From Tetraselmis striata (lineage: Eukaryota; Chlorophyta; Chlorodendrophyceae; Chlorodendrales; Chlorodendraceae), in contig VCJN01002690.1 of NCBI GenBank assembly GCA_006384855.1, positions 1 to 64,000 on the forward strand: a stretch of 64,000 bases of DNA, given 5' to 3'. Both the position numbers and the translations under genes were made by a program. Shown in pieces: positions 28,232-56,935 of this stretch. How positions within the stretch are numbered: the first letter of the stretch is position 1; the number at the start of each line of letters is the position of its first letter. Below the pieces are notes generated by a model, which worked only from the letters and a program-made list of their open reading frames with translations, made no database searches and was not told the origin of the DNA.

Positions 28232-28942
28232 TGTGTGGGTGTGGGTGTGGTGTGTTCGAGTGGGGGGGGGGGGGGGGGGGGATAACGAGTTGCTGGAGTG
28301 CCAGTGCACCACGATAAGCGGTCAACGTGCCCGGGCTGGTGCAACAATATCGGCGTCCACCGTGACTTCCACCAACCGGCAGGTTGGGGGGCGGCTAGCG
28401 GTCAAAAAAAACGGAGGATGGCCCGACTCTTCGCCGTCGCGTTGTTGACGTCGGTCGATTGATGAGTCGGCTCCGGGGCGGGGAGAGTAGCGTCGCTACA
28501 TCGCTACGAGTATGTAAGGAGTGTGTATGGAATACCTTTACGAGTAGCCGCGACTACATGTAGCACATCGTCGGATTTGTCGGCTGCGTGCCGCGCGCCG
28601 GGCGGTCGCGGCACTACCGTACCAGTACTGCTAGAGACGTAGTTCATGGCAGTACGCGCCTTTCGATACTACGCGGGGGACGACGACTACGAGTCTTTCG
28701 ACAGATGGTGGACGACGGGTTCTTTTAAACCCGTACAAAACGTACAAAAGCAAACACTTACCCGTACTGTACATCCAAGGAAACCCGTATCAACTCGTCA
28801 CTGAATCACTGATGATGCGCTGTTGTGAGCGCGCGCGATGGACATGTTGAAATCGTCCGCCAATCGCACTGCTAATATCGTCCACCGCCCCGGTCCCGGA
28901 CTCCAGGACGAGTTATTCCTAAGAAAAACGGGACCAGTACTA
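27085..28942. other. Spacer rich in G/C runs and simple repeats
   Basis: Poly-G at about 27410-27430, poly-C at about 27790-27803 and poly-G at 28262-28281 lie here with the GT/GC alternating tract at 28181. No gene is recognised. Confidence 0.5.
28181..28250. repeat. Alternating GT/GC tract
   Basis: (GT)n, then (GC)n, then (GT)n and GTGGGT units, followed by a 20-base G-run. Alternating purine-pyrimidine of this kind favours left-handed DNA. Confidence 0.9.
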
Positions 28943-30303
28943 CACCTCTCCACATAAGTCCGGGTTTTGCATTTTCGATCGCAAAGCGCATGCATGGGCG
29001 AGGATGCATGTGCAACGCCGGCTGCATGTGCATACATGCTAACTAAAGTGGGAGTAGTTCGGGCAAACGCCTATTGTGCGCTTTATACCCACCCGCGCGA
29101 CAACACGACCATTTGTGGGCGCCCTTGAAAAAACGCGAAATCATTGCATGATGCGTTGGCGCTAGAAAATTGTGGGTTGCGCCAACCGTCCAAACCTATG
29201 GAGATAGCGGCACTCGTCGCACCAAACTCGGTGAATACGGCCCTTGGCATAAGTTGCATACACCGTGCGTGTAGGCCACTGAAAGCATGTCGCTATAGGC
29301 ACGACGTACACCCCAACGACAAGTTGGCGACTGTGGGAAGCCGTTTTGGGGTGAAAATGCTGTTGTTTCTGTGGCGGACGCACGTAGGAGAGGCGCTCGA
29401 TGTCCCCCTTGGCGTAGGGCGATGCTCTACTATGGGGGCGCGTGGTGGAATGCCAGTTGCACCGTTTCGTGGGCGGGGTGGCGCGGTAGGGGCGTGGACT
29501 TTATTAATTAATATGAAATTCCTTGAAAATCTGCTCTGGAAAATGGCATTTTGGCTGGTAGATGTGTGTATCGCTAGGAGGCGCGCGGCACATGCCAAGT
29601 GTTGGTGGTCCGTGGTCATCCACACACATAACGCTCTCGCACAGCCGAGTATGGGGCTTAGACACGCACTTGGCGCAAAGCCACGCGCCCGACATGGGTG
29701 GGCACATGAGGCAGTGAGGGGCAACTTGGATGATCACCTTTGGGGATTTTTCCGGGGCCCCAAAGAATCGAATTTTTGATTTTGGACGATTGGTTTCGAC
29801 GCAAATTTGAACGAGCAATCGCGTGGTATTTTTAAAATAATTGTTTGAGCAAACCCTGAGAAGTTATAGCGTTTTACTGGCAAGGGGGTGTTGCTGAGCG
29901 TGGCCGACACTGTTGCCATGCCAGTATCGCAACGCGACATGTACTAGCCGCCGCCCACACGGCTGCACCCCAACAAATGCACCCGAGCTTCTCGCCAATG
30001 TGTTTCATCAAGCGTTCATGGCCATCCCGCCGTTTGGTTGTCTATTCACGCGCGTCGGTGTGTGCGTGATACCGACCTTGGTGTTGGTGCAGTAGTTGCA
30101 AGCGACGCCCATCCACGCACCAAGTGCAGCGTGATACCCTAGTCAAACGTCTTTAAGCTTCGGTTTGAGCCACTCGTCATGCAGGTCTTATAAAACACTC
30201 TGAGATTCCAGGGTTTCATCTCATATACCCTATGTTCAGGTACCCTAGACTTCTGAAGTCTTGAGACTGCTGAAAAGGGACCTCAAACTTATGTGGAGGG
30301 GTA
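28943..30303. mobile_element. TA-flanked transposon family, complete copy 1
   Basis: The left end CACCTCTCCACATAAGT and right end ACTTATGTGGAGGGGTA are inverted copies with two differences. TA lies outside both ends (28941-28942 and 30304-30305). The same ends bound 38095-39410, and one of them ends the copy at 24161. An ATTCCAGGGTTT block lies about 90 bp inside the right end here and in the 24.1 kb copy. A 211-residue open frame (29144-29779) has no recognisable transposase motif. A TA target suggests Tc1/mariner-type insertion, but the superfamily is not proven. Confidence 0.65.
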
Positions 30304-30314
30304 TAGTACTAGAA

Positions 30315-30590
30315 GTAAAAGTAAAGTTCGCTCCGGGACATCGGCCGAAGCCGCCCCAGCACTTGACCTCTTGCGCCAACTGCAGTCGTAGGTCTGGCAT
30401 AGCCCGGAGACCATCGCCTCATTCGACCCCCGAAGGGCTAATGCATCAAAAAGATGGATTGCTAATGCATCAACCGGGGAAACCCAGGACACGCCGGGAC
30501 GATATTGCCGAAAATATATCCGCCAGGAATCGAACCCGCGTACGAGACGACCGCTCAACCGAGCGGACGACAAGGGATGAAACATAGTAC
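30315..30590 (-). mobile_element. tRNA-derived SINE, copy 1
   Basis: Read on the minus strand, a tRNA-like head is followed by a body shared with 55797-56053. The head contains CCGCTCGGTTGAGCGGTCGT and an exact B box, GGTTCGATTCC (30526-30536). Shared body blocks include TTCGGCAATATCG, GTTGATGCATTA, GACTGCAGTTGGCGCA and GGGGCGGCTTCGGCCGATGT. This copy holds an extra GATGCATTAGCAATCC-type duplication in the middle. It inserted right beside the TA-flanked element. The head is not a functional tRNA. Confidence 0.75.
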
Positions 30591-30883
30591 CTGTACTGGT
30601 TCTTGGACTGCCGCATGACCTATACAACGGCGTGGCTACCACTCAACTGTTTTGAGCAGCGCTGTATCTCGGAGATTATAATCCTTACCCAATACAGACC
30701 GATAGATCGCGTGCGGATAGATCGCTAAGGATTACGCGATGCGGATTTCTTACTGGCGAGTAGGCAGCAGCGGCAAAAGGCGGCGAGTAAGGATTTCCTA
30801 CCACTGGCGGACTTGCCGTCGCGAGCTCAAACATCCTGCCTTTGCACCCGGACACAGACAAAGAGTACGTAGACACCGTCAGG

Positions 30884-34516: not shown

Positions 34517-37500
34517 TCACGCAAGGATGCGGTACCCGGTGGGCACCGCCAGCGCATGCCGCTCGCGGCTGAACTCCAGTGGCACCACAGGCGCCAGCGG
34601 TAGCCCCAGCCTGCCGCTCACACTCGTGCGCAGCCCCACGCGCACGGGTCCATAGTACCCTGAGCCCAGCCGCAGCAGAACGTGCCAAAACCGACCCGAC
34701 ACATGCACCTGCATCAGGGCGAGCAGGCAGGCGGCTGCGCCTGTCAGTCAGGGCATGCATGTGGAACTATCGAGGCGACATCCGGCTCAAAAGCACAACG
34801 CTTGCCAGACAACAGCGTAATATATATATATATAGTACATATATACATATAGTGTATATATACTATTTATATAGTATATATAGTATATATATATATACTC
34901 GCCGTAACCCCAGGTATACATCGAACACACACTCGTAGCGCATATAAACATCATAACTGTCACACATGGGCCACGGCCTAAAGTCCCTTGTCATGAACAC
35001 GCGGATTACGTATGTAGGGGTGTACATGCACAGTCAAGTTGAAACACATCTGAGTTATATTCAGCAACCGCCGCAGGCTATCTGTTGGGTGTGTGGAAGT
35101 GCGGGCTACAGTTATATGTTAAGCTGCGTCTCGCATGTGACTGATTGTGGAGGCCTACTTTCTGCAGTCCATAATCCAGCGAAGCGTCGATTTTTCGGCG
35201 GTGAGCTTTATTGCCGTACGGGTACCCGTATAGTGCAGCGGATCGGGCCTATAGGTGCATGACTAAAGCGCTTATCTACTGGAATGTACTACTAAGTACT
35301 ATAATCCACCCGCCCGCCCACGGTCCTTAATTACACAGCCGTCCGATTACGATCTCACGGTTGGGAGGCTGTGAGTACTGGTACTCGCTACTCGCTGCTG
35401 GTACTGGTACTGGTACTGGTACTCGCTGCTGGTAATGGGAAAAAAAAAACTCTGGTACTTCAAAGCGCTGGCAACGCGAACGCGCTCGCTGCTGGTACTG
35501 GTACTGGTACTGGTACTCGCTACTCGCTGCTGGTAATGAAAAAAACAAATCTGGTACTTCAAAGCGCTGGCAATGCAATTCATGGAACTGTAGGCCAGTG
35601 ACATAGAACCCGTTCTTTTAAAATTTTCTGAAAAATCGACGCATCGCTGATTCAACTGTCAATTTACTTCATAGTACAAAGCAGACCGGGCCTTGAGACA
35701 CGCTTTAACCATTGGACCCCATGCGGGTTCGTGCCGCCGGGCCGTAAGACAGCTGGTATGCTTAGCATCTAAGCGGTACTTAAGTCGTAAGAAATGTCAA
35801 GTATAAAGCAGTCACAAAGTACGATAGAGGGCGGGTTGTAATACGCCCGCATACCGCTGTGAGGAGCCATAAATTTTAACCTGTTGCTGATGAAAGCACC
35901 CGCTTCTTTAGGCCTAGTCAGCCTAAACCAAATCCCTGAAACTACCTACAGCCCGTAGTATGCATATGATTCATTGCCATCGGTATGCTGTTCCAAGATA
36001 TACGTTTCCATTGGCAGTTCAGCCACGCAGAAAGCAAATGGAAGCAACTGTTCCAAAACAAACACCGCTATCGGTACCTTCTTATTGATCCCGACAGCAC
36101 TGATACCCCCAGCGCATGCATACTGCGCTGGGCGGTCTCGAGACCTATAGCTGTTATACCTAGAGTAAGCCAACTGCGGGCCCACTGGATGGACTCGGCT
36201 TCGGCAGCTTCACGTGTCACCGCTTGTCGAGTGCTTGGTCGACGAAATAGTTTCGGCAAGTTTCCGTCATGTAAATAGCGTATGCATTCGCTTCACTGTC
36301 ACGCGCACGACCTCCCGACGTGGTCGGCAAGCATCTCGTATGTCGCTACCTGTAGTTCTAACAATGTCCGGAATGCGCCGATAAATCTACAGCGCAATCT
36401 AATTGCTCAGTTCGGTGCGTCAAAGTGATACCCGTTATAATACCGTACTCCAGCGCACTCGACGGGTAATCTTTACCAGCAGTCGGTGGTACATTACACG
36501 TGTACATACTCACACATCCTGTAGTAATGGAGAAACCTCCTAGCGGCTGCCTTTTGTAGAAAATGACCCCCCCCCCCCCCCCCCCGCGCATTCTATTGTG
36601 TACTGGGCTTTAGGGTTTATTTCTAGTAAAACCCTAAACCCGCGAAGGAAAGTCGAAGTTTTAGTTTCCGTCCTACAAATCACTGTCCCCGTGAGACCAA
36701 GTAAATCAGTGCTGCTGACTGCATGCAGCGCCAACACAGAGCGCGCAGTCCCAGGAGGGAAGGTTACTAGAAGGGATAGAGAAGGGGGGTAGGGGGGTAA
36801 AGGAGAGCGGCACCTTTGTGAGCGCAGACACTTTGGCGCTCCGCGGGCCGGTCACCACAAAGTCTTCTGGGCTCAGGGTGGCCTCGTCCATTGCCTTGCT
36901 GAATGCCACCAAAATGGTCACCTCCTCCGCACCCGTTAGGAGGCCGTCACCCGTGACGGCGAGGCCGGGAGCATACAGGCGAGCGCGTGGCTGCAGTGGG
37001 GGGGGGGGGGGGGGGTGGGGTCCAATAAGGCAGTTGGTGGCGAGGGCTTGCGCTCACACGCTGGAAAAAACTACAAAAAGCCGCCACAGCCATAGAGCTG
37101 AGAGGGATTCCCACCTTGTGTTGTATCAGTACGCAGTAGCGCTGCGGCGGGAAGGCTGTTGAGCTGCGGTTGGCCAGGATGGCGGCCTCCTGGACGCATT
37201 TCAGAGCGGCCGTTGTCTCAGCGGCCAAAAACACCAAGCAAGGTTGCACCGTCTCGGGTTCATGTCAGCCAGGGGCGCCGCGGCAGGAAAGGCCCACCTG
37301 AAACTCGAGGCATACGCTGGTGGAAGACATGTCCCATGCCTGGACGGGCGCCCTCAGGCGCGCCGCAAACTCGCCGCACATCGGCCCGCTGCGGTCCAGC
37401 GACACCAACTCCAACACTCGGCCTGAGCCCGCGACGTGGACACCGACCTTGCCGTCAGCCCCCCCCCCCCCCCCCCCCTTTCCCAACTCCTCCCCCTCCG

Positions 37501-40500
37501 CCAAAAGAATATCTATGTCATATCCATTAAGCGTTACATATATAAGATGCTCAATACAACATTCGATATATCACTATATTCAGTATATATTCTGTTATAT
37601 CATCTATTACATATATATTTTATATCTATGTCTACGTATGTAAGTACATCTACATTTATGTATATGTGCATATACGTATATGTATACATATGTATATATA
37701 CGCATATTTACATATATATACATATATTGAATATGGTATGTTGATATGGATATGGCATTTCCATCGGGGGAAATCAGAACGGAGCGGCGGATCAACCTGG
37801 CGAGACGGACACGAGTCCGGGAGGGACACGGACCACCGGATGGCTGAAGCGAAAGGGAACCTCCAGCCACATCACCTCCTCCCCCTGCGGCGCGCTGTCC
37901 GCGGTTGCGTCCCATGCCGGCGGCGCGTCAAAGCGCCGGACCTCGTCCTCAAACAAGCCCACGCTGAGTGGCAAGGGCGGGTCAGCCTCGTCGCCGTACT
38001 GCGGGCAAAAGTTGAGCAGCTCCACATCAAGCGTGACCTGCTCCACGACATGACAGCAGGAAGTACCAGCAGCACTGGTGTCAGCCACATCGTACACCCC
38101 CCTCCACATAAGTATTATGTGCTTTTCTTCGCCAAACACAAGTTATTTGCAAAAAGTAGGGCAGCTTAACCTAATGTTTGTGACCTGAAACCCTGGAATG
38201 TTGCACATTTATTTGAAGTTGTCATCACAATGCGGTTCAACCAAGCCCTAATACCCTAACAGCTGTGCCATACAAGCCGTCCCGGCGCCAGATTGACCGG
38301 CGGTTCAAGTGCCCATTGAACACATGGATTGGTGCCCATGGCGTGCTGCTGCTGCGCATACATATAGACCATTGGATGTTGGGGTGACCGTGGATGAGTG
38401 AGGAGACATGTTAGCGAAGGTCCTATTAGGGTAGTTTTAGGTGGGGTGGGGGCATATGAGCGTGGGCCACTGTACATTATGTATTGATACCATTGCGGCT
38501 GCAGTGTTGCCACGTTGAGCAACCGTTAAAACTCACCCGGAAACTCATAGCGGCTTAGGGATTGCTCTGACAAAAATTCTGACAAAGTATGGACGGTGGA
38601 CTACCTGAAACAACCCTCGGACGTCACAATCTTGCTATCGTCCGGGCACGTTTAGGCACCTTTTCGTCCCTATACGTAGAAACAGGTGGGAACATGACGC
38701 GCGTTGCAACAATTGGCCACATCATGGCCGTGGAAGTTCACGGTACATGCGTCTCAATACCAAATACCCGGTGATGAGGACATGTTTTGGATGTGCTTGC
38801 ACGCGAACCACTCATACTTGGTTCATAGCATTATTCACACCATCACCGAGGCAATAAAGGTCCTGCCATACTTGTGCGACTCGGCCAAGAATAACACCAA
38901 CCTGGCCAGGCACTACTACGGAAAGACTTTTGCCCTGCAGCAATGAGGCCGCGAGAACCCTCATGCTTGAGCATGCAACGAACACAGCAAGATTTTGCCA
39001 TGAATTTGCTCCGAAACCAACGGAATCCATTGATAGCGCTTGCTAATACCCAAGGACCTAATTTCAATGCCCTAAATGCCTGAATACCCTTAAATGCCCT
39101 ATGTATAGCGGATAGATCGCGTACAAGGGGGGAGACGTGGTATGATTCGGTGCCAAATGTGGCCCCCGGCTATGCATGGGCATGGATGGCGCAATTTCTG
39201 GTTTTGTAGAATTATCGCCACACGCACTCTTTTGGCATAACTGAAATCACTGACGGTGTCAGCTACATCGGCGGGCAGTATCGGGTCTTACGCGCTGTCA
39301 CAGCACTTGACCCGACAAGTAGTAGCCTTTGCAACATGCAACGGCCGCAATGTTATCATTTATGGGCGTGTCGATTGAATCCGTAAACCCCATACTTGTG
39401 TGGAGGGGTGTAGTATAAATACTCTTACGCCATGCCAGTGCGTTTGCAAATATATGAGAGCGAGCACGAACATGGCTTTATTTGTTCCGTCGCTGGCGCA
39501 TGCTGGGCGGCTGCTGCTTAACCGCAGATTTTATTGAATGGTTTTTCGCGCGCATTGGGTCGCAGTTTTTTTCATGAGCGACAGGCGCACTCCGCGTAAC
39601 TGCTGTCAAGTCATGTCGAGTGAAGCACCCCTCAGTAAGGATCAATTTGGCGTAGTCGGTGCTGCCATGCACCAGTCATCGGCAGTTTCGACATCCATCG
39701 CCCCGAGTGATACAAATAGGTTGCAGTGGATGTTGTGTTTGAGCGCATGCCGCCTGCCAACATGTATTTTCTCAATATGTATTCTTTGTCACTCGACTGC
39801 TCCCGTCGTGTCGAGCGCGCTCGCACTAGGTACTGACAGCCACCTCGCAGCTTGTTGCGTCAGCAGAAATGTGCGGTTTCAGCACTGCCGTTGTTCCCCC
39901 CGAGTGGCGGCATTCGTCGATCAAGACCAGACTGTATTAATTTTAAAAATAATCGCGGTACCCGCTTCCCGGATCCCGGCAAAACGTCCCGACGGCTGTA
40001 CGGTCGCAGGTCGGAGAGGTTGCCAATGGTCGGACCCGTGCAGAGTTCCTCACAACAAGTGGTTTTGGGGCTGTCCGGCCCGTGCTTGTCCAGCATTCGA
40101 GCAACTAGTCGCTTATTACGGCCATCGTATCGCGGTCGCGGCCAGTGCGGCAAAATGTCGGATAGAGCGCGCGTCGTCCACTCAAGGTACGCCAGTGGTT
40201 TTGATACATGAATTAGCTCGACCCGGTCGTCAGCACCGCTGGTGTGATTGCTGCTAATCACCATGAGTAGGCGGCGACCGCGTAACGGCGGACTCCTACA
40301 CGTCTTGAACGAGCCGTCGTCATCGACCACGCAGATTTATTTCCTCCTCCGAGATCATGGTTTCGGAGCATCGCGGCGCGCGGCGGTTCGTCCTGAGTTT
40401 CTGAGCTACAGATACATACTAAATTACCTTCGACGGACGGTCAAAGGTTTCTCAGCCTTCAGTTTCGCGAGCAGTGTTGAGATTCTCGCCGCCAGATATG

Positions 40501-43500
40501 TAAAGTTATTCACAGGGGCTGATGCAGGTCACGGCGATGGCGATGTGAGGGCGAGGGCTTTATTTCGTCATGAAATTTTGACTGTCATGTAATTTTGCGG
40601 TTGGCTTGCCTCGGCGGTCGCATCACAATACTAATTTCATAGTACAAAAGATATGTGGGTGTGGGTGTGGTGGGGATGTGGGGGGGGGGGGGGGGGGGGG
40701 GGGGGGAGGAAGGGCGTTACCTTTCCCGTCATCTGTGAGCTGCTGATTTCCACAGTGGCGCGGTAATGCCCCTCCCAGAGACCCATGGCGGTATAAGTCA
40801 TCGTCAGTTGGACGGAGCCACCCGCGGGGAGGCTTCCCTGCGATGGCGAGATCTCCAGCCACCCACCAAACAAACCCGCTATGCGCGGGCTTGCGCGGAA
40901 GTCTGCGGCTCGGTCACTGGGATTGCTCAGCGTCACCTGCGCACCAGCAGAGTGTTCCCCCGATCTTCAGGGGCATGATACGGCAAGCGAGGCATCAGAC
41001 AAGCGCCGGGCTAGTAGGCAGCCAGGTCCGTGATGCGCAGTGTCGCAAACCATATGAAAGCACAGTATAGCCTGTACGGTGCCAGGGCAAATCACACTTT
41101 GATGTTATTATCTTATGCAGGCAGCAGAAGAAAAGAAGACAGCGTCAACAAGCACGCTTGGATTGACAGTACAATCGATATTTCTCATAGATCGTACCAT
41201 TAATTGGGTTCGCGGTTCTAACAATACAAATTTTCACCATCAATAACATAATCAATAACATAATATAAAGTCTTGTGATGAATCCTTACTCGGATACCTG
41301 TTTCAGATATAGCAACCATGGTACCTTCGCTTTGTGGGGGTCCGAAAAACGCATAGTGAGCCCGAAGCGTGGTCACGGTATGCGGATACCCGAGGGGGTG
41401 CGGGCTGGCCAGACTCACCGACTGCGTCTCGCTGCCGTTGCTGTACAGCAGAACCGGATCCAGGCGGTCGGCCGAGACGGCGAGGCGGGACAGCGGGGCG
41501 GCATCGCTGGGCGGTGCTGCCAGCAGGAAGTTGCGGCTGCCCCGGAGCCCGGCCGTTTGCATACCCTGGGTGGCCACCTCATCCTGCAGGTGCTGAAGCA
41601 CCTGTGCGCCAATGCAAGCCAAGCAGCCGGTGGCGGCAACTTTGTCAGGTGATACCGGGAAGAGTGGCTGCTGCCAGCACCGTTGGCCCATCTTGAAGCC
41701 TACGTACGCACCTCTTCCGGTCGCAGCTCCGGGCGCCGTCCGAGCAACCAGGCCGCGGCTCCCGCGGCGCGCGCCGCAGCATACGCTGTCCCAGCCGCGG
41801 GGGGCGCGGCAAACGAGGGGTCCGCAACCGGCGCAGCCGTGGGAGGGGAGCCCCCCGGTGGCTGCGCCATCATCACCTCGCTGCCGATGGGCAGCCGCCG
41901 ATCCGACGACCCCGGCAAGCTGGCTGCCAGCGCCGACGCAGAGCTTGGCGCAAAGAGCGCGATGCCAGGGCCGTGGTTGCTGTCTGCCCACATGGCACCC
42001 GCGCCGTCTTCCGCTCCGACTGCGATAACACCGGGTGCACGTGCCGGGCTGAAGTTGCTCACATCTGGAGGCACAGCGGTCGCAGGGTGAGTGGGCTGCT
42101 ATCATGGATTCGTCTCGTCGGCGGACGAGACAGCGCATCAGCATGGGCCGCACGCCGCTTCGCCGTGCAGGAGCAAATACTCCTTTCCACAAAAAGATTA
42201 ATCAAGTAATCCAGCAGCTGCAACAGTCTTGCTTTCTGTATTTTGTGGTGCATTGTAGCGCTGCCTCACTGATAACTAATACTACTGATACTAATACTAC
42301 ATACTACAATTACATATACATACTAGTCGCTGCTATACATACTAACATACGCGCCCGTACATAACCATACTATACTACCGCGCGCCGGTACTACTGCAAT
42401 AGTATAAGCCAAGCTGATGTAAACCAGCACACGGTACATCCAAAGTTATATTTCAAACTTGGTCTCGCTTTTAATTTGTTATTGCATAAATACGCAACTA
42501 TACCGCCATCCAGGATTACATGTGTATGCTACACATTTCCACAAACAAATCTCTCCCATCTACGAGAGCTTTACGTGCGCAAGGACATTGTTGCCCTTGG
42601 TCATATTATCATTCATAGGTAGCTAAATCAGGTGGGGAAAGATCGCAGCCTGCCTTGCAGTTTGATAGCAGACGATACAATGAGTTATTAATGGTACAAG
42701 TCGCTGGAATGGCGGTCGTCATTGTGCTTGCGGGGGCTGGGGTATAGTGTAGTGGCAGCATCCGCAACCACAGCGCTTTGGGTTCGCGGTATGTTATCCC
42801 CCCCCCCCCCCCCCCCCCCCACACACACACAGATGCAATCTCTCAGAATAACAACATCTATCTTGAAATATCTCAGAATAAAACACGAATACTACACAAA
42901 TCTTCCGACTTGTTGCTGGAAAGTAATACCTTAGGGTTTTTGGCCATGCAAATGCATTTAATTAATGGCACGGCAATAGCAGGCTCGGATTATGGCAGAC
43001 TAAGGTACACAGGGGCTAAGTTCAGTGCCTTCAGTTGTACGGGCCACCACTTTGCGTGGGGCGTGTTGCCTGGCTGCACCTACCCTCGCCATAGTTGCCC
43101 GCCGCGGCCACCACGGTCGCGCCCATCTCCACCAGCCGGCTGGCCGCGGCGTCCAGCGGGCGGCTGCCCTCCCCCCCGGTCGTTGCAAAGGGCAGCAGCA
43201 CCACTGCAGGAGCCGCCGGCTCCAGCGCAGCGGCCACCTGGTCGAGCCCCTCCAGCGCAGTGACCACAGAGCCGCGGCCGCCGCAGCTCAGCACGGGAAC
43301 GGGGCGAACCACACTTGCAGCGCCTTGCGCCCAGGTCACTGCCAGGACGGGGACGGACAACCCGTAGCTGGCACCGTCGTCTGCACCTGCAGCGCAGCTG
43401 GCGCCCATTTGCGGCACCGCCTCGGGCAAGGTGGTCGTTGTGCCCACCGGGACACTCATCTGGGCGGTGAACATCTCTGCGTCGATTGGCTGCGGGAAGG

Positions 43501-45685
43501 CAGGGGAACCGGCAGGGGGGCAATGCTTGCTCAGATGGGAGGTGGTGGCGCAGGCCGCACTCTTACAGGACGCAGAGAATATCGGCTTATCGGACTGCTG
43601 CGTATCCATTTGGTGATGAGATGTCTCTTGCTCAGGCGGACATGTGTTTGTCAAAAACTGGAAGATTTGGGATGTGCGGGTTGGCTGTTTGGATACAGGT
43701 TAAATCAGCAAGTGGTGCACCACACCGCGAAGTTTGGCCACAGGAGGGTTCTCTCCTGCAGGCAGAATGCCCGTTTATACGCCGTAATGGTGTCCTCCGC
43801 TGCATTGCTGCCATTTGCGCAATCATGGTTTATGGGAGGGCTAGACCAATGATCGCTTGTCCGCGAACAACAGCTCGGAATAGTGGATGAGTAAATAAAC
43901 AGCAAATATGCGCGGATCGCGGGACGGAGCACACAGTACATAAGTCATTTAGTTTCATGCAGCAGCCGCCGGGGATATTAGGTATAGGGCACAAAGTACG
44001 GTCCAAAGCCACCGCATATCTCGAAATGCACCGCTATAATATGCTCCGAAACCGTTTGCTTCCGAGGCGCATTGATGGCACAACGTATGTGGTGCTGAGC
44101 AGACGACGGCGAAAATTGTTCAGAGGAATTGATATACCCATCCACAAATACAAATATCCGCCTGGGTGACAAATACCAACAGGCTATGCTGTTGCAAGAT
44201 GGGGGCGCACTACAAGACTTAGTCAGATCACGGACCGCCCTGTGGATGCCGATACCACAAAGATAATGTTACTGGGAGTATGTGATACTCACTAGTTCTC
44301 CATGGTCATAGGTATATCTACGCCCGAAGCGCATGACGTCCGCTGGTGCACACATGATGTAATGACCTTGTATAATATGTATGTACCTTTCCAGGAAAGC
44401 AGTCTCGAGGGCTTACTTGTGTTTTCTTGGTTCGCCAAAATCGCGATTCATGGAACGACGGGCTACTGCCCAGTCGGGCGGGCCGCAAAATCTAACAGCT
44501 GCGTCCGTGTATCACTTTCCTCTAACTATCCAATAGACACTATTACTGTGTATAACAAGTTCTATGCCATGCCCCCAGGTATTGACTTGCTTTGATGCCT
44601 TTGCAGAACAAGTAACCAGGCAAAGGGGGGGGGGGGGGGGTGACGTACCGTGTCTAGGATGTACAGCGCTACTCCTTTCACGAGAACGCTATCATGTGTG
44701 GCGGACATCGGCTCAGATTCGATGGCGAACTGACCCTGCGCGGCGGGAACACATAACCACATGTGTCAAGATACACAGCAAACGCTGCCGGAGGCTGCGA
44801 GCCCCCGCCCTCTTTTTTGGCACCCTCGGGGCACAATCACATGGCGATGGGGCTGATCATTTCTCGTACCTCAGTCAGCTGCGCTTGGACTGGCAGGTTG
44901 GGAACGCACTCCAGCGGGGCGGGATCGCCCTGCGCTTGTGTGCACACCTGCTGCGCGCCCTCCAGCATGCCTGCCTGCAACTGACTGAGCACGCCGGGCG
45001 AAAACTGCACCGCACCCAGGGAGCCAGACAGGAACAGCGACAGCACGAGAGGGGTCAGGGGCGCTTTTGACGCCCAGCCTTGTTGGGACCGTGGCGGGCA
45101 TGCACCCGCCCATCCTTTCCATTGAGGCAAAGTGCTCGGTAGCGTACAGCGCGAGCTGACACCGGCATCGTGAATGATGCCGCGTGTGTGTGTGCGTAAA
45201 ATGGCGGGAGGCGCGTGGCGCGGCGAACTGCACCTGGCCGTGGAAACCTGCGATCGTGGTAAAGTATCCGCCGCAGCGCCCCGCCGGCTCGGCGCCCGCT
45301 GCCCCGTCTCCAGCGGCCACGCCGCACGCTGCGCCGTACTGCGGGCCCATCCCGCCGCTCGAACACCAGCAGATGACGCTCTCCCTGCTCAGCGGAGTAC
45401 CAGGGCAGACGAGGTTGTCAGGCCCCAGTGGCAGAGGGTACGCTAGAGGGTCACCGACAGCTTCCGTTCCTGTGTCGGAGGGGTGAGTGCCGCGGCAGCA
45501 CTTGTCAGAACCGCGTAGCTGGCGGGGTACATGAGCGCATACCAGGTGCCATCAGCCTCGCCATTCGCGCCATCGTCCTGCTGGCCCCGGGCAGGGACGG
45601 CAAGCCTGCCAGCCAGCAGCGCCACCGCCAGCAGCAAGCGACAGCAATGCACCCCCAAGCAGCTGCGGCTACTACTCCGCGGCAT
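34517..45685 (-). CDS. Secreted subtilase-like pseudoprotease
   Basis: Thirteen exons, read leftward from 45685, end at 34517: about 45685-45543, 45384-45234, 45004-44870, 44735-44649, 43489-43084, 42064-41712, 41601-41419, 40936-40721, 38037-37797, 37422-37298, 37189-37115, 36990-36814 and 34708-34517. They give about 827 residues; the exon 1 donor is the least certain boundary. It is a paralogue of the gene at 48239 and shares a signal peptide (LLLAVALLAGRLAVPARG), a CWC.SG segment, an inhibitor-I9-like propeptide, an S8 domain and C-terminal beta-sandwich repeats. The aspartate region (ALYILDT) and oxyanion Asn (AAAGN) remain. However, the GHGT motif is replaced by CAAGAD, exon 5 has no histidine at all, and GTSMAAPH has become GTAYAAA. 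Proteolysis is therefore not expected. Introns are long and hold transposons. The frame is intact, which argues for a retained non-catalytic role. Confidence 0.8.
35175..35673 (-). repeat. Dispersed repeat with inverted ends, copy B
   Basis: Inverted relative of 597-1022, lying in the last intron of the subtilase-like gene. It starts ATCCAGCGAAGCGTCGATTT and ends with AAAAATCGACGCATCGCTGA and TTACTTCATA. Unlike copy A, it carries a tandem duplication of a central module, each unit with a (GGTACT)n run, an A-run and GGTACTTCAAAGCGCTGGCAA. Confidence 0.65.
36606..36643. repeat. Telomere-motif hairpin
   Basis: GGCTTTAGGGTTT and AAAACCCTAAACCC face each other across about 10 bp in the last intron of the minus-strand subtilase-like gene, so an inverted pair of TTTAGGG-type motifs can fold on itself. 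Confidence 0.6.
38095..39410. mobile_element. TA-flanked transposon family, complete copy 2
   Basis: Left end CACCCCCCTCCACATAAGTAT and right end ATACTTGTGTGGAGGGGTG are inverted copies over about 20 bp, with TA outside both (38093-38094 and 39411-39412). It lies within the intron between exons 8 and 9 of the subtilase-like gene. The left 870 bp matches the copy at 23240-24161 in reverse. No transposase is recognised. Confidence 0.68.
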
Positions 45686-46055
45686 GCCGACTCGCGGCCT
45701 TGGATTGGGAGGCCGTGCAAACTGGCGCAGCGCACGCCCAGAAGCCGAAGGAAGGGGAGTGCACAACCTCAGCGACCCTCGGCACACTCACTGTAATGTT
45801 GCAGCCTTTGGTGCGCCGCAAGCACGCTACGGCAAGCGCGGTCCAGTCAGGTGGCTGTAGCAGGCGGGATGCCGTAAAACTTATTGCAAGTAGTGGTAAG
45901 TTTAACAGCAGTACCATGTAGTAATCCTACGAGAAAGAATGGCGGGGCGCGGACGATGATAATCGCGGGCGGGTAGTTTTTAAAACGAACAGAAGCCGGC
46001 GTTGCTTGTAACTACTGCCAAATAGGGGGTTCCCGCGTCAAATTGCAACGCCATA

Positions 46056-47132
46056 TTGCAACGCATAATATACCGCCACGTCGCGCGGTGTCCGAGTCAT
46101 GATGTAATCGTTACAACTGCTGCGGGTATATACCGGTACCGGCGCCGGCATGCGTCACATCACCCTGCCGCCACCACCCTTCTGGCAGCTCACAATCTTT
46201 CGCGCCCCACGCGACTTCACGCGGGTAATCGCTACAACCCTGCACCCTACGTCATGGGCCGTCTAATAGGCAACGCGGCCGAGGTGCACCAGGCCCGGAC
46301 GGCGCTGTCACGGGCGATTCGGCTACTGTCCATTTCCGCGCCTGAGCCGGAGCTCGCAGCTATATTCCTGCAGCGCACCATTCGGCACCGCCGCCGCCTG
46401 CGTCGCCTCATGCGCCCCGTATCCCGAGCCTGGCCGTCCCACCTCAACCGGCTAAACATTGACCTCGCCGTAGAGCGCGTTGACGAGGCGCTCTTTCAAG
46501 ACACGTACCGGTGCCGCCCTGAGGTATTCGACCAGCTGCTGGAGCACCTGAAGATCCCTGATGTGCTTCGCTGCGAAAGTAGGCAAGGCAAGTTCACAGG
46601 AACGACCGGCTTGCTGGTTTTGCTGGCACGGCTAGGAACGGCAGGCGCTGCGCACAGCCTGGGGGCGAAGCTTCGCATGAATCCGAAGCGTATCTCGAAG
46701 ATATGCACGCACATGGTGAAGTGGCTCACGCAGCGATGGGGCCACGTCGTTATGACCGGTGCGCTCGACAGCAGGCTGCCAGGATACGTGCGTGCCATCC
46801 AGCGGAAGTCGGGGGTGATGCTGCCTGTCTTCGGGTTCATCGACTGCACTTTGCGTGGATGTCGTCGTGTGAAATACAGTCAGGAAGCGATATACTCTGG
46901 ACACAAGAAAAAACACGGTTTGAAATATCAAATTGTTGCTGTGCCAGACGGACTTATCACTTACCTTACAGGTCCTATCCAAGGTCGGCGTGGCGACAGC
47001 AGAATTTTAGAGGAGAGCCAGCTGGAGGATGTGCTCCGTGTGGTGCAGCAGCGACCGCCCCGAAGGGAGCTCCTCCGTGTGCGGAGGGCAGTCTTCCTTG
47101 AGCGCGTCGTACAGGCGAGCCTCCATAGCTAG
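46056..47132 (+). CDS. Harbinger-type DDE transposase, 3'-truncated
   Basis: The open frame has 358 residues; a downstream ATG at 46254 may be the true start, because the first 66 residues lie next to the terminal repeat and look unlike protein. The catalytic core shows FGFIDCTLRG (first Asp, residue 263), then YSGHKKKHGLKYQ and VPDGLITYLTGP, then GRRGDSRI (second Asp, residue 314). This is the DDE_Tnp_4 order. The final Glu region (the usual ...ERaFG segment) is absent: from about residue 325 the frame runs antisense through the second open frame of the element. Excision and insertion in trans could still use the ends, but this protein should be inactive. Confidence 0.8.
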   Translation: MQRIIYRHVARCPSHDVIVTTAAGIYRYRRRHASHHPAATTLLAAHNLSRPTRLHAGNRYNPAPYVMGRLIGNAAEVHQARTALSRAIRLLSISAPEPELAAIFLQRTIRHRRRLRRLMRPVSRAWPSHLNRLNIDLAVERVDEALFQDTYRCRPEVFDQLLEHLKIPDVLRCESRQGKFTGTTGLLVLLARLGTAGAAHSLGAKLRMNPKRISKICTHMVKWLTQRWGHVVMTGALDSRLPGYVRAIQRKSGVMLPVFGFIDCTLRGCRRVKYSQEAIYSGHKKKHGLKYQIVAVPDGLITYLTGPIQGRRGDSRILEESQLEDVLRVVQQRPPRRELLRVRRAVFLERVVQASLHS

Positions 47133-47309
47133 CTTCTTGCCGTGTGGGTTGGTGTCGCGCCAGTGCGCAGCAACCTTGGCACGATCCGCGGCGGTCAGCA
47201 GCGCCGCGATCCACAGGACGTCCGACTGCCAACGCCGTTTCCACACGTGGGACGCACCCTGAGCGCTCTCCTTCTTTACGTCTGCCGTCTCCTGAGTGGA
47301 TTCCGCCAT
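47007..47309 (-). CDS. Second protein of the Harbinger-type element, partial
   Basis: An open frame of 100 residues from the ATG at 47309 (MAESTQETADVKKE). It contains a Trp-spaced stretch (VWKRRWQSDVLWIAALLTAA, then AHWRDTNPHGKK) that could be a Myb/SANT-like DNA-binding fold, the usual partner of Harbinger transposases. The opposite orientation to the transposase and the overlap at its 3' end fit an element that lost the sequence between the two genes. The last 30 residues probably come from the deletion junction. The domain call is tentative. Confidence 0.5.
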   Translation of the reverse strand: MAESTQETADVKKESAQGASHVWKRRWQSDVLWIAALLTAADRAKVAAHWRDTNPHGKKLAMEARLYDALKEDCPPHTEELPSGRSLLHHTEHILQLALL

Positions 47310-48238
47310 GGTGGTGCCGGGTTTTGCTGCGGTGACTGGGGGAGAGGCGGGGAGCTGCGAGCAGTTTTGAAATGGCGCAGGCGCCGGCGGAGTCCCGGCA
47401 GGTGGTGACCGGGTACGGGATCCACCCGTACCCGTATCCGCGACTACCCAGATCACGGTCAAACTCAGACGTTGCAGAAGTAGTCGCTCGTTGCAGTTTC
47501 AGCCAAAATGCAACGCCGCGAGCGTTGCATTTTGGTGCGTACGCGGGCGTACGGCTGACGTGTACCGCGTATCGTTGCAATATGGCGTTGCAATTTGACG
47601 CGGGAACCCCCTAATGGGACATCAAGAAGCGCTGCTGTGATCGACCGAGCGGCGGGACTACAGATACGATGGATTTCTGGATAGATTTCTTCCTTCTGGA
47701 TTTCTGTGTGGATTTCTTGAATGTTGCGTCTAGCACATGTAATCATTTCTGGATATAGATCATTGGTGACTAGCGACCATAGTCGAAAAGAAAAACGTCG
47801 AAACAGATACCTGTACCCTGTACTGGTACCGGTAAGGATTACCTGCACGCCGCCAGCAGCACCTCGTCCCTGCGTCCCTGTACTTGTAGTGTGAATTACA
47901 AAAAGGGCAGTACTTGTACGACAGGTACCGGTACTGCACCGCGCCGGCGGTTTCCCGTACGGGTATGTACTGGTACCGTACTTGTCCCGGGTGTAGCAGC
48001 ATGTAAGGAGTACCCTTCACGGCATATGCTTTTAAAGCAGCACGACTGCGGCGACGACGAGCAGCAGCGCGACGACGCGGCCTACGGGCGAGCTTGCAGG
48101 GCGCGGTTTATCACACACCTCATCACCAGCGGTGCCTGCGGGCTGGTAGCCGACCTAGCGTTCTGGCGTCTCTGGCTCTGCGCGTTCATGTTTCAGCGTG
48201 GCCGGGCCGCAGCGCATAAAACGTCGCAGGGCCGCAGC

Positions 48239-51200
48239 ATGTCGCGCCCGCCGGCATTTATTCTCGCGGCCGTGGTGCTGGCGCACCTCGCACACTTATT
48301 CCCGGGAGCGCTGGCGTACGGGTGAGGCCCCACACAAGGCTGAGCACGCGCTTGTCCACGGGAAGCAGCGGGGCGGGGGCGGGGCATCACACCCTAACAA
48401 CTTTTGTGCTCAGGTGCGTATGGTGCTGAGAAGGTAGAGGGAAAGGAGGGGGGGGGGGGGGGGGGGGCTTGTAACTCTGGCAAGCCGGCGAAGCATGAGC
48501 GGTTGCGTTGTTTCCCATGCAGGGAGCTGCTGGACACGATTTGTTGGTGCCGCAGCGGGGAGCAGGGCTCCACCTTTGGCGTTGTGTGCGGGGTGGCCGC
48601 CCTCGCAGGCGGCTCCTGCGTCCAGTACTACTCCATCATCGCGGGCTTCATTGGCTATGTGTGCGCCCAAATTCCGCATCCAATCCCATCCCATCCCATT
48701 CTCTCCTCTCTTGCGGCCTTTCACAAAAGCCCGGCACAACAGTACAGGCACTCCTCATCTAGCCCCCCACCTCATGATACCAATGACGGGCGTTTCGGGC
48801 TGCTGTCTCAGTTCCCGAGGGAGGTGGTGGAGTCGCTGGAGAACGGGACATTCTTCGAGGCGCGCAGCGCCTGTCCAGGCGCGGAGCTGCTGGAGTGTCA
48901 ACCCAATGCGCGCGTAATAGGGCAGGCGGAGCAGGTACCCCTCTCAACATGTCGTTGCCAAGCCGGGTCCTCGTCTAACACCCCCCCCTCCCCTCCCGGC
49001 GCGCTTGGCCAGCACGTGCAGCTGACCCCCACTCCTCCGCAGGATGTGCCCCGGCTATGGAACTTGGATCAGCTTGACTCCAACCGAGACGGCAAGTACC
49101 ATTACGCTGCGCTCGGGACGGGGGTGCACGTCTACGTCCTCGACACGGTGCGCCATCTCCCCACCATCTCAGTCCCTTCCATAAGTCCGCATTCAAGCGC
49201 AGGCGACATGCGAGAGAAAGTTAGCTTGTAGAATTTGCGCAAGTCAAATATGCCCTGGTGGTTGCCATAGGGGGTTTACCCAAACCATAGCGAGTTTGCA
49301 TACCCGTCGGAGGACATCGCTGCGGGTCACTTCTCCGAGAGCGATCGGAGAGTTATCCTCGGCACCTCCACCATCCGCGGCGATCCCTCCCCAGTGGACT
49401 GCTTCGGGCACGGCACGATGGTGGCGGGCGTGGTCGCCGGCAAGACGTTTGGCGTGGCCAAGAACGCCACCATCGTATCAGGTAAGAGGGCTAAGAGCCA
49501 CCATAACTCCATCCTAGTACCGAAACGTGGATGCACTTTGTTTGTTTAACATCACAATTTCTTTCCTCGAAAAATGCAACGCCCTGTGGCTATGTAAAAA
49601 CTATGGCTCGAAAAGCATAGAAGTTTTCCGTACGGAGAGTGTCGATGAATACAATTTTACACCGAGTCAGCCATGGATAGGATTGCCACGTGGCGGCAAG
49701 CATGGGGGGTTATTCGCACTGCTCAGTACCCGTTTTGATGCCGCAGTGAAAACTCTTGACTGCGACGGCGTTGGCAACGTGGGCTCGGTGCTGGAGGCGC
49801 TTGGCTGGGTGCGCGACAACCACGCCAAGCCAGCCGTTGTCCAGATGTCGCTGGCCACCACCCAGGCGGACCTGCGCCTGGACGCCGCCGCCGCCCGCCT
49901 GGTGGACGAGGGGCTCACCATCGTCGCATCCGCGGGCAACTTCAAGACAGGTGCCCGCCCGCCCTGTGCTACACGGCCGGCAGGGGCCCCCGTGCGCACA
50001 TCGGCCCACCCATCCAGTTGCCATCATTCGGGACAGCTCGGCCCGGCGCTGCAGAGATTAATGAACTAAATTAAAAAACCCGTACGTACCTTTGATAATA
50101 CGGTTTGCAGGGCCCAGAATTATAATGAAATGTTTGCGCTTTCAGGTCGGCATCCCTGTTTGGAGGATGATCGCGTTGTACCCGTAAATTCTAAATTCAT
50201 TCTAAGCATTCTAAATTATGTCCTATTTTCATCGCGCACGTGCGCGGGGGGAGGGGATTTAAAAACGTCATTTATTCGCGGCTTCTTTTGATTTGTTTCA
50301 CAGTATAAATTAACATGCTGGATTCACAATTAAACCGTCAATCTTTGCGCCATGCTGCTTCGTTTGTCCAGATGTTGACAACTGCAGCCCCGCTCGCGAG
50401 CCCTCCGTGATCGCCGTGGCTGCCAGCAACGTCCGCAACCGGCCGTGGCGCTCGAGCAACTACGGGAGCGGGATCACCCTGTTTGCGCCCGGAGCCAATA
50501 TCATCTCCTCGTACAAGTACATCCCCGCGCTGGGCCGCTCGTTCTCCAAGAACGCGGACGGCACCTCCATGGCGGCGCCGCACGTCAGCGGCGCCATTGC
50601 GCTCTTCCTGCAGCACAACCCGGGGAGCTCCCCGCAACAGGTGCACAGATGCAGCAGATCCGCCTCCGTTGTTGCGGCGTTGCCGTCGCGTGTCGGAATG
50701 TCGTCGCGTGACGGAAAGTCAGTGCTTGCTGCAGCTCGGACAACGAAACATGGGAAGTAACTGTAGTCGCTGCCGGTTTTAGTCTCGAGATATTTTTAGT
50801 AACAACCTTGGCTGGCTCATAGATCCCCCTCCAACCACCCGACCCCGGCCATGATCTGCGATTGATGTGTACAGGTGCTGGAATATCTGAGAGAGGAGTC
50901 AGTCGAAGGCGTGCTTACCGAGTTGGCTGAGGGCACACCTAACATTTTGCTGCGAGTGGACCCGGAGGCCAACGCGCCGCTACTGGCCCTGGATGTCGAC
51001 CGCCTCGAGGACGTTCTGCTCTTCCAAGGAGAGAACACAACAGTTGAGGTTAGACATGCCCAATCGCGACGCCTCGTGGATGCTTTCAGGGCTGAGCGCA
51101 GTATGTCTGCCGGGACACACCACGTGCATCGCAATCCCGACTCCGACAAAACGTTTCATGATGTTACGTCCACATGTGGACGAGGCGTGGAGACGTAATT

Positions 51201-54070
51201 CTAGTTCCGACTAAATTCTTGCGAACAATGGATCGCATCTGTCGTGTCGGGGCGCTCGTTATTCCTGGCCCGCGCTTTCTACGCGCCCTGGAAATGCCAT
51301 TGACAATTAGGTGCAGAGGCAGTGTTGGCCTAAAACCCCAATCGCGCTTCGCGAGTTGACACCCCGGCATCACGATCGCTTAAGCCCAGAATCGAGCTCC
51401 TCGCCAATAATATCCACATTATGCGTTGGTACCGTGGATTAGTACGCGAGGTTTTATAACTTCGGCCTGCTGAATGACTTATACATAGCGCATCGCAAGG
51501 TTTCGTCTCGATTTTCTGAAAAGGAGTCACGTTTGTTAATCTGAAAAGCGAACCTTCCGTTCGCCGACACAGAATGCAACATATTTACGCCCAGCCCCGA
51601 ATGCATTGCGGGCACCGTAAGAGTGGTACATGTAGTAGTTGTTGTAAAACTGCACCGGTGTGTATTTCTCACCTCAAGTTATCAAGCGCCGCGTTGGCAC
51701 CGACAACCCCCAAACTGACAAACTCCTGCAGTGCAACCCGAGGGTGATGCGTGTCACGTGCACAGACACTAAGCGACGGGTTGGGCCGATGTAAGGTAGT
51801 CGGCGTCGAGATATGAACGCGGTAGCTTTTTCGTGTCGAGTTTGCTTACATAACGTAATAATATGTCTCGGCTATTGACCTTTACAGCAACAAAGCAAGC
51901 CGTGATGAACAATCAATGATATAACGCTGCGACGCCATCTGCCACGCGCAGGTCCAAATTATCAACGAAGGCATGGAGACTCTCGAGTTTGACGTCGATG
52001 TGGAGGTCGAGGGGCTCTTCGGAGGATGGCTGGAGGCCGTGCCAGCGACAGGAGCCGTACTGCCGGGCGGCAGCCTGACACTGTCCCTGACGTTCAATGC
52101 GCTTGACCTGTGGGAGGGTGCGTACAACGCCCGGGTCGCGGTCCGCTCCAATGCGCTCAACAGCGAGGTGCGCCTTGGCATTTCGCAGAGGGGGGAACAG
52201 CAGCAGTAAACCACCCATTGCGCATGTAATGCCTTTTGGTATGTGCGGTGTGTGCACACAGTGTCGCACCACTTTCCGACAACAAAAAACAGCGTCGGCC
52301 AGTCCGCAGTGGAAAGGGGTCGACTTTAATTTGATAATATCATTTTTTATACTTTAAACCCTGATTATGTAGGAAGGCGTTTGCAAGCCACCCCCCTTCA
52401 CATCACGCATTCTTCTCCCAAACATGTCACACATTAAATAGGATCACATGAACGACATTGAGTCATATGCGCCGCATGCATTTTATAAACCTCCGCATCT
52501 CGGCTGCCTCAGTCGGCCAGTATTACTCAAGGTGGCAACTACTCCTCGTGCACAGGAGGCGCTTCCAGTCACCATGCTCATCCTCTGCGAGGCACTGCGA
52601 GAGCAGGATCCAGCCAGCGAGCGGCGCGTTGCGTTCCCGGACGGCGCTCTTGCTGTTCACGCCGTTCTGCCGCCATGGGAGGCCGCGCTTGCAACTGGAG
52701 CGCTGGAGATGGAAGCGGACAGGGCCGGTCATGTGTGGGTTCAGATGCCGGTGCGGTTCAGTCATCCTGTCAAGGCGCTGGATATCAACGCCTCGGTGTC
52801 GGTGTCAACTGGTGCCCCCCCCCCCCCCCCCCCCCCCCTCCCGGCGCGGCTTGGCAGCTATCCTGCAGCACCGCTGATGTCAGCATGTAGGGAGTGGGGA
52901 CGGTGTGTTTCTGTGCCATGGGCCTTTGGCGCCTGGCAGATGATAACCCCCCCCCCCCCCCCCCCCCCTCCCTTCCAACTCCCCCCCCCCCCCCCCCCCC
53001 TCTCTATCCTTTCCCATAGGTGAGGTCCTGAAAGTAAGCCATGCCGACATTCGTGGCGCCATGTGCGGGGACATGCTCGTGGAGGCCCGAGTGCCAGTGA
53101 CGCCGTGGCAGAGTAGCGTCACGGAAGTTTGTGTCCGCATTCAGGTGCGCTTAGCACTTCCTACCTGGGCTATATGAGCGCCTTTCGACCTGCCATTTCC
53201 GCGATCTAGCCACAGGCTTCGCCGTGCCAGCATGGCGTCTGTTGCATGGCCTGACGGAGGTCACTACGCGGCATAACCCCTGACGCCTACTGATTCTCGC
53301 ACAGAATGTCACGGATGTCTATGGGGGCACGTACGGAAACAGCTCCTCATGCCTGGAGGCGCGGCACCAGGTGCGGTGCAGTCGAATGTATGGCAGAGGT
53401 TTCGAAAGTCGCATCTCTGCCTGCGGTGCTTATTCTTGTTTGGAGTCTCAGGCACCTACTGACATCCGCGACTGTTTTCTTCCCTGCATTGCCGCCGCTA
53501 CCGGGCAGCTGTTCGGCCGGCTGATGGGTGTGCAAATGGCGGCACATGGAAGCCTGCCACCGCTAACCTCACGGGCCAACCTCACCATCATGGCCACGTT
53601 CAGCCAAGAGCTGGACGATTCCACCCTAGGGGAGGGCGCCTTCCGTGTTGTGGGCCCGGCTGCTGCCGCCGTGTCCGGTCTCAAAAGGGTGCGGCAAGAG
53701 GCCCCTACCTTATCCATCACCATTCCTGATATACTCTACATCAGATTTTCTTATAAGTGGATAATCCAATCAGTAGGCGCAGCATCGACATCTTACTGGG
53801 CGGTGCTGACTGCCATCTTCACAGGTCCACATGAACATGCCATTTTGGGCGCTTGCTCTGAAGCTCCCACCCGATTACTTTGGGCCTGTGGCGGTGGAGC
53901 TGGCTGGCGAGGGGGTCCGTGGTGCCAATGGGGAGGCACTGATGCCCGTGTCGCCGCTGCGCTTCGTGCGGGAGGGAGATGTGTTGGTCGAAGCCAACGC
54001 GTACCGCCTGGACGGCAGCCCCAGCATGCTGGATGCCGCTGCTTCCTCGGAAGAATTGGGCGGGATTTGA
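48239..54070 (+). CDS. Secreted subtilisin-like serine protease, proteinase K type
   Basis: Fourteen exons begin at 48239, 48523, 48812, 49043, 49271, 49747, 50372, 50875, 51952, 52556, 53020, 53305, 53509 and 53825. All junctions are GT-AG with matching phases, giving 797 residues. Order: signal peptide (AFILAAVVLAHLAHLFPGALA), a Cys segment (TICWCRSG), an inhibitor-I9-like propeptide (YYSIIAGFIG to LWNLDQLD), then the S8A catalytic domain. Catalytic residues are Asp148 (YVLDTG), His196 (GHGT), Asn284 (SAGN) and Ser353 (GTSMAAPH). VKTLD and CSPA resemble proteinase K. From about residue 435 follow beta-sandwich segments, including LFGGWLEAVPATGAVLPGGS and a Calx/SwmB-like piece with MATFSQELDD. 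Several N-x-S/T sites fit secretion. It should cleave extracellular or cell-wall protein; the substrate is unknown. It is divergent from its dead paralogue at 45685. Confidence 0.88.
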
Positions 54071-55796: not shown

Positions 55797-56053
55797 AGGT
55801 ACATCCCTTGTCCGCTCGATAGAGCGGTCGTCTCGTATGCGAGAGACCCGGGTTCGATTCCTGGCCGATGCATTTCGGCAATATCGGCCCGACGTGTCCC
55901 GGGTTTACCTGGTTGATGCATTAATTAGCCCTTCGGGGTTCGAATGAGGCAATGGTCTATGGGCTATGCCAGGCCTACGACTGCAGTTGGCGCACGAGGT
56001 CAAGTGCTGGGGCGGCTTCGGCCGATGTCCCGGGGCGAACTTTACCTTTTACC
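55797..56053 (+). mobile_element. tRNA-derived SINE, copy 2
   Basis: The head has a D-arm-like GCTCGATAGAGC, an anticodon-arm-like GTCGTCTCGTATGCGAG and a complete T-arm, CCGGG-TTCGATT-CCTGG, with the exact B box GGTTCGATTCC (55851-55861). The D-loop is too short and the anticodon stem has a mismatch, so it is tRNA-like rather than a tRNA gene. The nearest relatives by eye are Ala/Thr-type tRNAs. The body matches 30315-30590. It lies just upstream of the LINE fragment in the same direction. Confidence 0.75.
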
Positions 56054-56180
56054 GCGCCCGATGCCGCTAAACTAGTAAAGGCATCGGTGTGGGCGCGTTA
56101 CGAATCGTCGGCATCGTTAGCACGCAATAACACCTGGGGTATATAGTCGCTATGTCCAGGCGTCTTATGCGGCAAACCCG

Positions 56181-56935
56181 TTGCCACAGTACGGTGTGGG
56201 TGTCCCCGCGGGGGTGGTGGCCGGGTTGCACATTATGATACAATTACGCACCCGAGTATTTCCCACTGCCCGCCGATTGGCCCGGATTCATGCCATGCCT
56301 GAGCGGTTCCTTGAACACTGCCCTGCATGTGGCGGAGGTGAATCTGAGACTATCGAACATATGTTGGTGGAGTGCCCGCGGTGGGGGTATCACCATCATA
56401 ATTTTGGGTTGTTGGTTCCGGAGTTCAGGGATTTTATTAGTAGTCAGGTTATTGCGTCAACACCTGAGGACTTAACTGCCTTTATTTTGGGCGGGGTCCC
56501 CCCCTCCCGTCACGGCGCCCTAGATTTTACTGGGAATGGGAAATTTTTGCAGCTATGGCGTCGGGCCCTCCCTCACATTGCCTTTTTTGTTGCACATGTA
56601 TCGCACTCCCGAAATGCTTTGCTCCGCGGGTTGGGGCTTGCCCCAACTCGCATTACTCGAATGGGCCGACGCCCAAACGGGTAGGGCGGACCTTTCGTGG
56701 TAGTCAGTGCCGGGTATTTTGATGGCAGTGTTTTAGACGGTGATCCAACAGTGTTGGAAATTCCGTCACTTGCCTTCAATTAGTCTTGCAGAATGCTTCG
56801 GCAATTTGCTTGATGACTATAACGGAGCGTCGCCTACCCAGGGCTTTCCGTAACTGGATTGCTGCCTAAACGGCCGTCGTAGAGACGCTGCAAGGGTTTC
56901 ACTGGTGCCAGTCCTGTCTCGGGGGCGGAAAAAAA
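56181..56935 (+). mobile_element. LINE 3' fragment: end of the reverse-transcriptase protein and tail
   Basis: An open frame of 167 residues (56181-56684) contains the zinc-finger block found after the reverse transcriptase in many LINEs: HCPACGGGESETIEHMLVEC, that is C-x2-C-x8-H-x4-C, preceded by a basic stretch (RLARIHAMPERF). A 3' untranslated part of about 190 bp follows and ends in an A-run at 56929-56935. Its last 65 bp recur at 7164-7229. The reverse transcriptase and endonuclease parts are absent, so this is a 5'-truncated copy. Confidence 0.7.

Follow-up and report, generated by a model that had tools for sequence, protein, structure and literature searches.

A putative pseudoprotease gene head to head with a predicted active subtilase gene in the green alga Tetraselmis striata

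Can a protease gene be kept after its product has lost the residues with which it would cleave? This question is raised by a 64,000-nucleotide stretch of the Tetraselmis striata genome (assembly GCA_006384855.1, contig VCJN01002690.1, positions 1 to 64,000; hereafter the window), in which two subtilase genes lie head to head, one on the plus strand and one on the minus strand, and read away from each other. A first inspection of the letters by a model (the original prediction) had described them as a divergent pair of paralogues, one of them catalytically dead, and the catalytic residues, the scores against the Pfam model PF00082 and the alignment of the two proteins all agree with that description. 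On balance, we think that the minus gene probably encodes a retained pseudoprotease, a proteinase K-type subtilase paralogue that is apparently secreted and that binds rather than cleaves.

We assembled both gene models by hand from three-frame translations with GT-AG introns and without RNA, as follows.

34517 to 45685, minus strand: putative pseudoprotease gene, 12 exons, 802 amino acids (hand-built GT-AG model, Pfam, catalytic residues)
48239 to 54070, plus strand: predicted active subtilase gene, 13 exons, 775 amino acids (hand-built GT-AG model, Pfam, catalytic residues)

Positions 34517 and 54070, the ends between which the pair had been placed, are the stop codons of the minus and plus genes, respectively. 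The minus frame is open over all 802 codons in the window allele. Thirteen exons had been predicted for this gene; the rebuilt model has 12, with the His and Asn exons fused. Both proteins have the same order of parts: an apparent signal peptide (assessed by eye), a Cys/propeptide segment, an S8 domain and a C-terminal tail.

The plus protein contains D148, H196, N284 and S353, with the numbering originally given. These residues make up the Asp-His-Ser triad and the oxyanion Asn, and activity is predicted from them. The triad of the minus protein is incomplete. Its Asp171 is kept in ILDT and its Asn304 in AAGN; the Ser is replaced by Ala401, in GTAYAAAR where the plus protein has GTSMAAPH, and no His lies between D171 and N304, the closest being residues 157 and 338. 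The predicted absence of His from the expected exon and the change from GTS to GTA were thus both borne out. The exons that carry these segments are listed here.

49271 to 49481, plus strand: exon 5 of the plus gene, GHGT with H196 (gene model)
50372 to 50640, plus strand: exon 7 of the plus gene, GTSMAAPH with S353 (gene model)
43084 to 43489, minus strand: exon 5 of the minus gene, His segment and Asn segment in one exon, with no His (gene model, alignments)
41712 to 42064, minus strand: exon 6 of the minus gene, SPAR...LFAP segment, an insertion of about 28 residues rich in Ala, Pro and Ser, and GTAYAAAR (gene model)

A profile of five active relatives placed Tyr214 of the minus protein in the His column, and MAFFT L-INS-i placed a gap there, beside Gly201. 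We favour Tyr214 because its spacing to the Asn (90 residues) is near that of the His in the plus protein (88 residues). An E-INS-i alignment put the front part of the minus protein in the wrong place, and we did not use it. We scanned the three minus-strand frames across the minus gene, in the window and in a second haplotype (contig C2291, described below), and found no match to GHGT in its context, to GTS[MVAI]A or to TS[MVAI]A[ATSV]P. In the minus gene, the bare string HGT turned up three times per haplotype, always out of frame; the plus gene has one HGT and one GTS[MVAI]A. The scan found no missed His exon in the minus gene of either haplotype, nor the missed exon with GHGT and GTS that the original prediction had named as contrary evidence.

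Large insertions aside, contig C2291 and parts of the window between 25 and 52 kb are collinear, the aligned pieces being 87.5 to 97.2% identical. Other contig pairs in the assembly are similar to each other at 96.9%, 97.5% and 99.1%, and one pair at 93%. We read C2291 as the probable other allele of the window. It ends within the plus gene, past exon 9, which leaves the last four of the 13 plus exons outside the comparison; the nine plus exons that it carries are unbroken. All 11 donors of the minus gene on C2291 are gt and all 11 acceptors are ag. Separately, about 25 kb of C2291 (4243-29566) lies between stretches that are only about 2 kb apart in the window (28501-30733). Part of this insert (C2291 28513-29382) matches window 56052-56928 at 95%, so that the insert holds at least one dispersed repeat.

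Comparison of the two haplotypes revealed constraint on the minus gene. Because the plus introns are more diverged than those of the minus gene, we took neutral rates from each gene's own introns (minus, 198 differences in 8,231 sites; plus, 90 in 2,178). Pooled intron rates give the same picture; with own introns the minus values hardly shift and the constraint on the plus gene is stronger. Where 38.5 nonsynonymous changes are expected, the minus coding sequence has 19 (P = 4e-4); its synonymous changes number 16 against 17.1. By part, there were 3 against 7.0 expected in the signal and propeptide region (P = 0.08) and 7 against 16.8 in the tail (P = 0.006; conditional P = 0.03). The ratio of nonsynonymous to synonymous divergence (dN/dS) by direct count is 0.38 for the minus gene and 0.18 over plus exons 1 to 9. 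Indels are also depleted from the minus exons, with 2 against 13.1 expected from its own introns (P = 2e-4), and the first 1,455 nucleotides of coding sequence contain none against 7.9 expected. Within the minus S8 domain, residues 149-191 are enriched in changes (6 against 2.2 expected) and residues 192-317 are free of them (0 against 6.0; P = 0.002), these two segments having been chosen post hoc, after the changes were known. This distribution would suit a core and tail that are maintained and an active-site loop that has been freed.

Both proteins belong to peptidase family S8: the plus protein scores 114.2 bits and the minus protein 37.5 bits against PF00082 (cut-off 21.8). Among solved structures, the plus protein is matched best by 8c4z, 2b6n (named proteinase K), 4dzt (aqualysin-1) and similar enzymes, fungal proteinase K following closely. 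This places it with the proteinase K-type S8A enzymes. Green algae are reported to have proteinase K homologues (PMC6713707). The pair differs from this type in that the minus protein is without His and Ser and in that both proteins have about 370 additional residues as a tail. The best solved-structure match of the minus protein is PCSK9, at 72.4 bits against 53.1 for the next-best chain, and identity to PCSK9 over the aligned S8 region is 41.0% for the minus protein and 36.5% for the plus protein. A special kinship with PCSK9 is unsupported: the residues shared with PCSK9 alone number 5 in the minus protein and 10 in the plus protein, under a rule slightly easier for the plus protein. PCSK9 acts by binding after one self-cleavage, its own triad being intact, whereas the minus protein has no intact triad for self-cleavage.

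The propeptide had been predicted to be I9-like. Neither protein had an I9 inhibitor model among its Pfam matches (asked for at E up to 10, with filters that remove most matches above 0.1). The segment is a putative propeptide by its position and by an alignment in which minus residues from 87 on match PCSK9 residues from 106 on, a region that we take to be the PCSK9 prodomain. The tails show sub-threshold similarity to HYDIN/ASH-type immunoglobulin domains (plus, 22.0 bits, PF22544 cut-off 25.5; minus, 20.7 bits, PF24507 cut-off 27.0), and their best match among solved structures reached only E = 0.62. In searches of the assembly (224 Mb, 2,903 contigs) with either protein, which score the best candidates only, the tail was found solely in this pair and its C2291 copies among the 52 and 36 matches listed. 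The protein of an rbcL frame in this assembly is matched best by the Rubisco structure 1gk8, from Chlamydomonas, in keeping with a green alga.

The plus and minus proteins are 42% identical over the Cys/propeptide segment (36/86) and 40.0% over the S8 domain (106/265), which is not below the 36.9% of the tail (128/347). They cluster in a tree of eight sequences with weak support (64), and their branch lengths after the His are 0.70 (plus) and 0.85 (minus). These branches and this S8 identity do not support the idea that the dead S8 domain has evolved faster since the duplication. We checked the residues of the three nearest other S8 loci, out of 70 S8 matches listed. Two lie on contig C832, at 20.7 kb and at 93.9 kb (the latter with a 99.1% identical copy on C553), and keep Asp, GHGT, AGN and GTS. 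The third, on C1, keeps HGT, AGN and GTS, the Asp falling outside the alignment. All three look active by motif; of the loci examined, only the minus gene departs from this. When viral contigs were queried with plus residues 1-403, six stretches matched a pattern and none was confirmed as a relative.

The gene structures are also closely matched. Eleven of the 12 plus introns have counterparts in the minus gene, and the phase is equal in all 11 (2,0,0,0,1,0,0,0,1,0,0), an agreement that is not fully independent, as exon boundaries were picked with the sister gene as guide. The remaining intron is the following.

49482 to 49746, plus strand: intron of the plus gene between the His and Asn exons, with no counterpart in the minus gene (gene models)

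Because both C832 genes break at the position of this intron and the C1 gene does not, its counterpart was probably lost from the minus gene. The motif TGTAA, presumably the green-algal polyadenylation signal, lies 76 nucleotides beyond the minus stop in both haplotypes and 342 nucleotides beyond the plus stop, weak signs at an expected 0.5 to 1.3 per 1,000 nucleotides. The last minus intron contains short-period repeat frames (VLVLVL, YQYQYQ; 35305-35617), and several introns of both genes contain poly-C and poly-G tracts.

The original prediction had suggested that the two genes share a promoter region. The sequence between them contains these features.

45686 to 48238, no strand: region between the two start codons, 2,553 bp in the window and 1,085 bp on C2291
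45931 to 47957, no strand: block inverted relative to C2291 (about 44656-45206 there; haplotype comparison)
46023 to 47613, plus strand: DNA transposon of 1.59 kb within the inverted block (terminal inverted repeats, target duplication, DDE_Tnp_4)

The transposon, which we take to be Harbinger-like, has 45-bp terminal inverted repeats, a 3-bp AAT duplication and an open frame (46026-47129) that matches DDE_Tnp_4 at 42.5 bits (cut-off 24.8). It is confined to the window haplotype, and C2291 has an empty site. Collinearity between the haplotypes extends over flanks of about 245 bp by the minus start and about 280 bp by the plus start. The idea of a shared promoter appears weakened, because the middle of the region is inverted between haplotypes and bears a transposon in the window. 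Elsewhere in the window, long low-complexity frames (QYQYQF.., SISISI..) at 22586-23322 come from a simple-sequence tract, and an open frame at 5336-6010, whose match to Retrotrans_gag stays below threshold (17.0 bits against 24.1), is perhaps a retrotransposon remnant.

How might such a protein work? The minus gene probably arose by duplication of an ancestor that already carried the tail, after which the fold core and tail of its product would have been kept under selection. Because the minus protein has neither the His nor the nucleophilic Ser for self-cleavage, its own propeptide should stay uncut and attached. The protein would then be exported with its propeptide on and act by binding, most likely as a non-catalytic scaffold or decoy that holds a partner through its tail and S8 surface. 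Candidate partners are the active sister, a substrate of the sister and a wall component. Only its gene position and the shared architecture favour the sister; the original prediction, in naming it as the partner, goes beyond the evidence.

Retention is supported for the window allele by its intact frame, by about half the neutral number of nonsynonymous changes and by the depletion of exon indels, and to this extent the predicted retention holds. It is less secure for the C2291 allele, which may be in decay, and several observations weigh against it. On C2291 the minus gene has one extra base in exon 9 (CCC to CCCC) and another at the exon 10 acceptor, which sum to +2 and leave the frame unrestored (window 37298-38037); these may represent a real null allele. 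The dead S8 domain has 9 changes against 14.6 expected, which is not significant (P = 0.08; conditional P = 0.20), next to 2 against 24.3 in that of the sister, whose share of 2 of the 11 S8 changes gives P = 0.038 with pooled rates. A stricter test of the whole minus gene, conditional on total changes, gives only P = 0.046. The dN/dS of the front of the gene is 0.59, next to 0.19 for the tail, and Fisher contrasts are not significant either between front and tail (P = 0.18) or between the plus and minus genes (P = 0.28). The comparison moreover spans two haplotypes only. The frameshifts and the S8 counts would suit a recently disabled gene in early decay, a polymorphic pseudogene that has lost activity, whose constraint is fading and whose second haplotype is already frameshifted. 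We consider this rather unlikely. Early decay fits poorly with the nonsynonymous depletion over the whole gene and with that of tail changes and indels, and the remodelled His segment, the missing intron and the insertion in exon 6 would all have needed time, yet the window frame is intact. Additionally, seven single-base differences, including the two in exons, crowd within about 0.84 kb (37.0-37.9 kb) beside a long G run, which suggests that the extra bases on C2291 are a local assembly error. It could also be argued that the models, being built without RNA and guided by the sister, conceal an exon with GHGT and GTS that the minus gene truly has. Such a gene-model or assembly artefact is very improbable: the scan of the gene's minus-strand frames, on both contigs, gave no such motif, and no break separates the exon holding Ala401 from the conserved LFAP and helix segments.

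A narrower version of retained binding is that the dead protein, co-expressed with its sister, specifically controls it as a heterodimer partner, inhibitor or chaperone through the Cys/propeptide segment. This is a special case of the reading that we favour, and the likelihoods of the two overlap; we regard it as possible but doubtful. The head-to-head position, the similarity of the Cys/propeptide segments and the restriction of the tail to this pair and its C2291 copies among the matches listed are consistent with such control, and there are precedents. In the Csp system of Clostridioides difficile, dead subtilases (CspA and CspC) occur alongside an active paralogue (CspB). CspC keeps its Asp (D105), has Thr170 and Gly485 at the His and Ser positions and retains an uncleaved prodomain (PMC6636752); like the minus protein, it has kept Asp and lost His and Ser. 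The same report and PMC12880746 also give the precedent of CspA and CspC with CspB. SUB1-ProM is a propeptide-like protein whose gene adjoins three Plasmodium subtilase genes and which inhibits SUB1 (PMC6993865), so that here too the product of a gene beside subtilase genes restrains an active subtilase. The parallels are incomplete, however. The stable complex in C. difficile joins the two pseudoproteases CspC and CspA without active CspB, which did not co-purify when untagged (PMC12880746). The Csp proteins belong to bacterial spores and have a jelly-roll insertion of about 130 residues within their S8 domain, whereas the insertion in the minus S8 domain is only about 28 residues long and the algal pair is eukaryotic and has a C-terminal tail. 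SUB1-ProM is a propeptide alone, and the minus protein is a full dead protease. Control of the sister would furthermore have to be reconciled with an intergenic region that is inverted between haplotypes and bears a transposon. Less likely still is a head-to-head module in which the dead subtilase has co-evolved with its sister and gates her maturation, location or activity, as a eukaryotic parallel to Csp with the freely evolving active-site loop and the conserved tail as recognition parts.

Protease families in which dead members occur next to live ones are already known. The more unusual point here is a clean eukaryotic pair that matches in exon layout and whose polymorphism hints that the active-site loop is relaxed while core and tail are conserved. 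The papers found that join pseudoproteases and subtilases concerned C. difficile, malaria proteases and ubiquitin ligases of the endoplasmic reticulum; no paper joining pseudoprotease, alga and subtilisin was found in a search that left most subscription literature outside, where a prior description is possible. If the dead copy controls the live one or binds alongside it, this locus would offer a compact example, in a eukaryote, of a subtilase pseudoprotease that has an active sister as its partner gene. Two linked genes of near-identical exon layout would then make it possible to ask what maintains selection on a dead protease.

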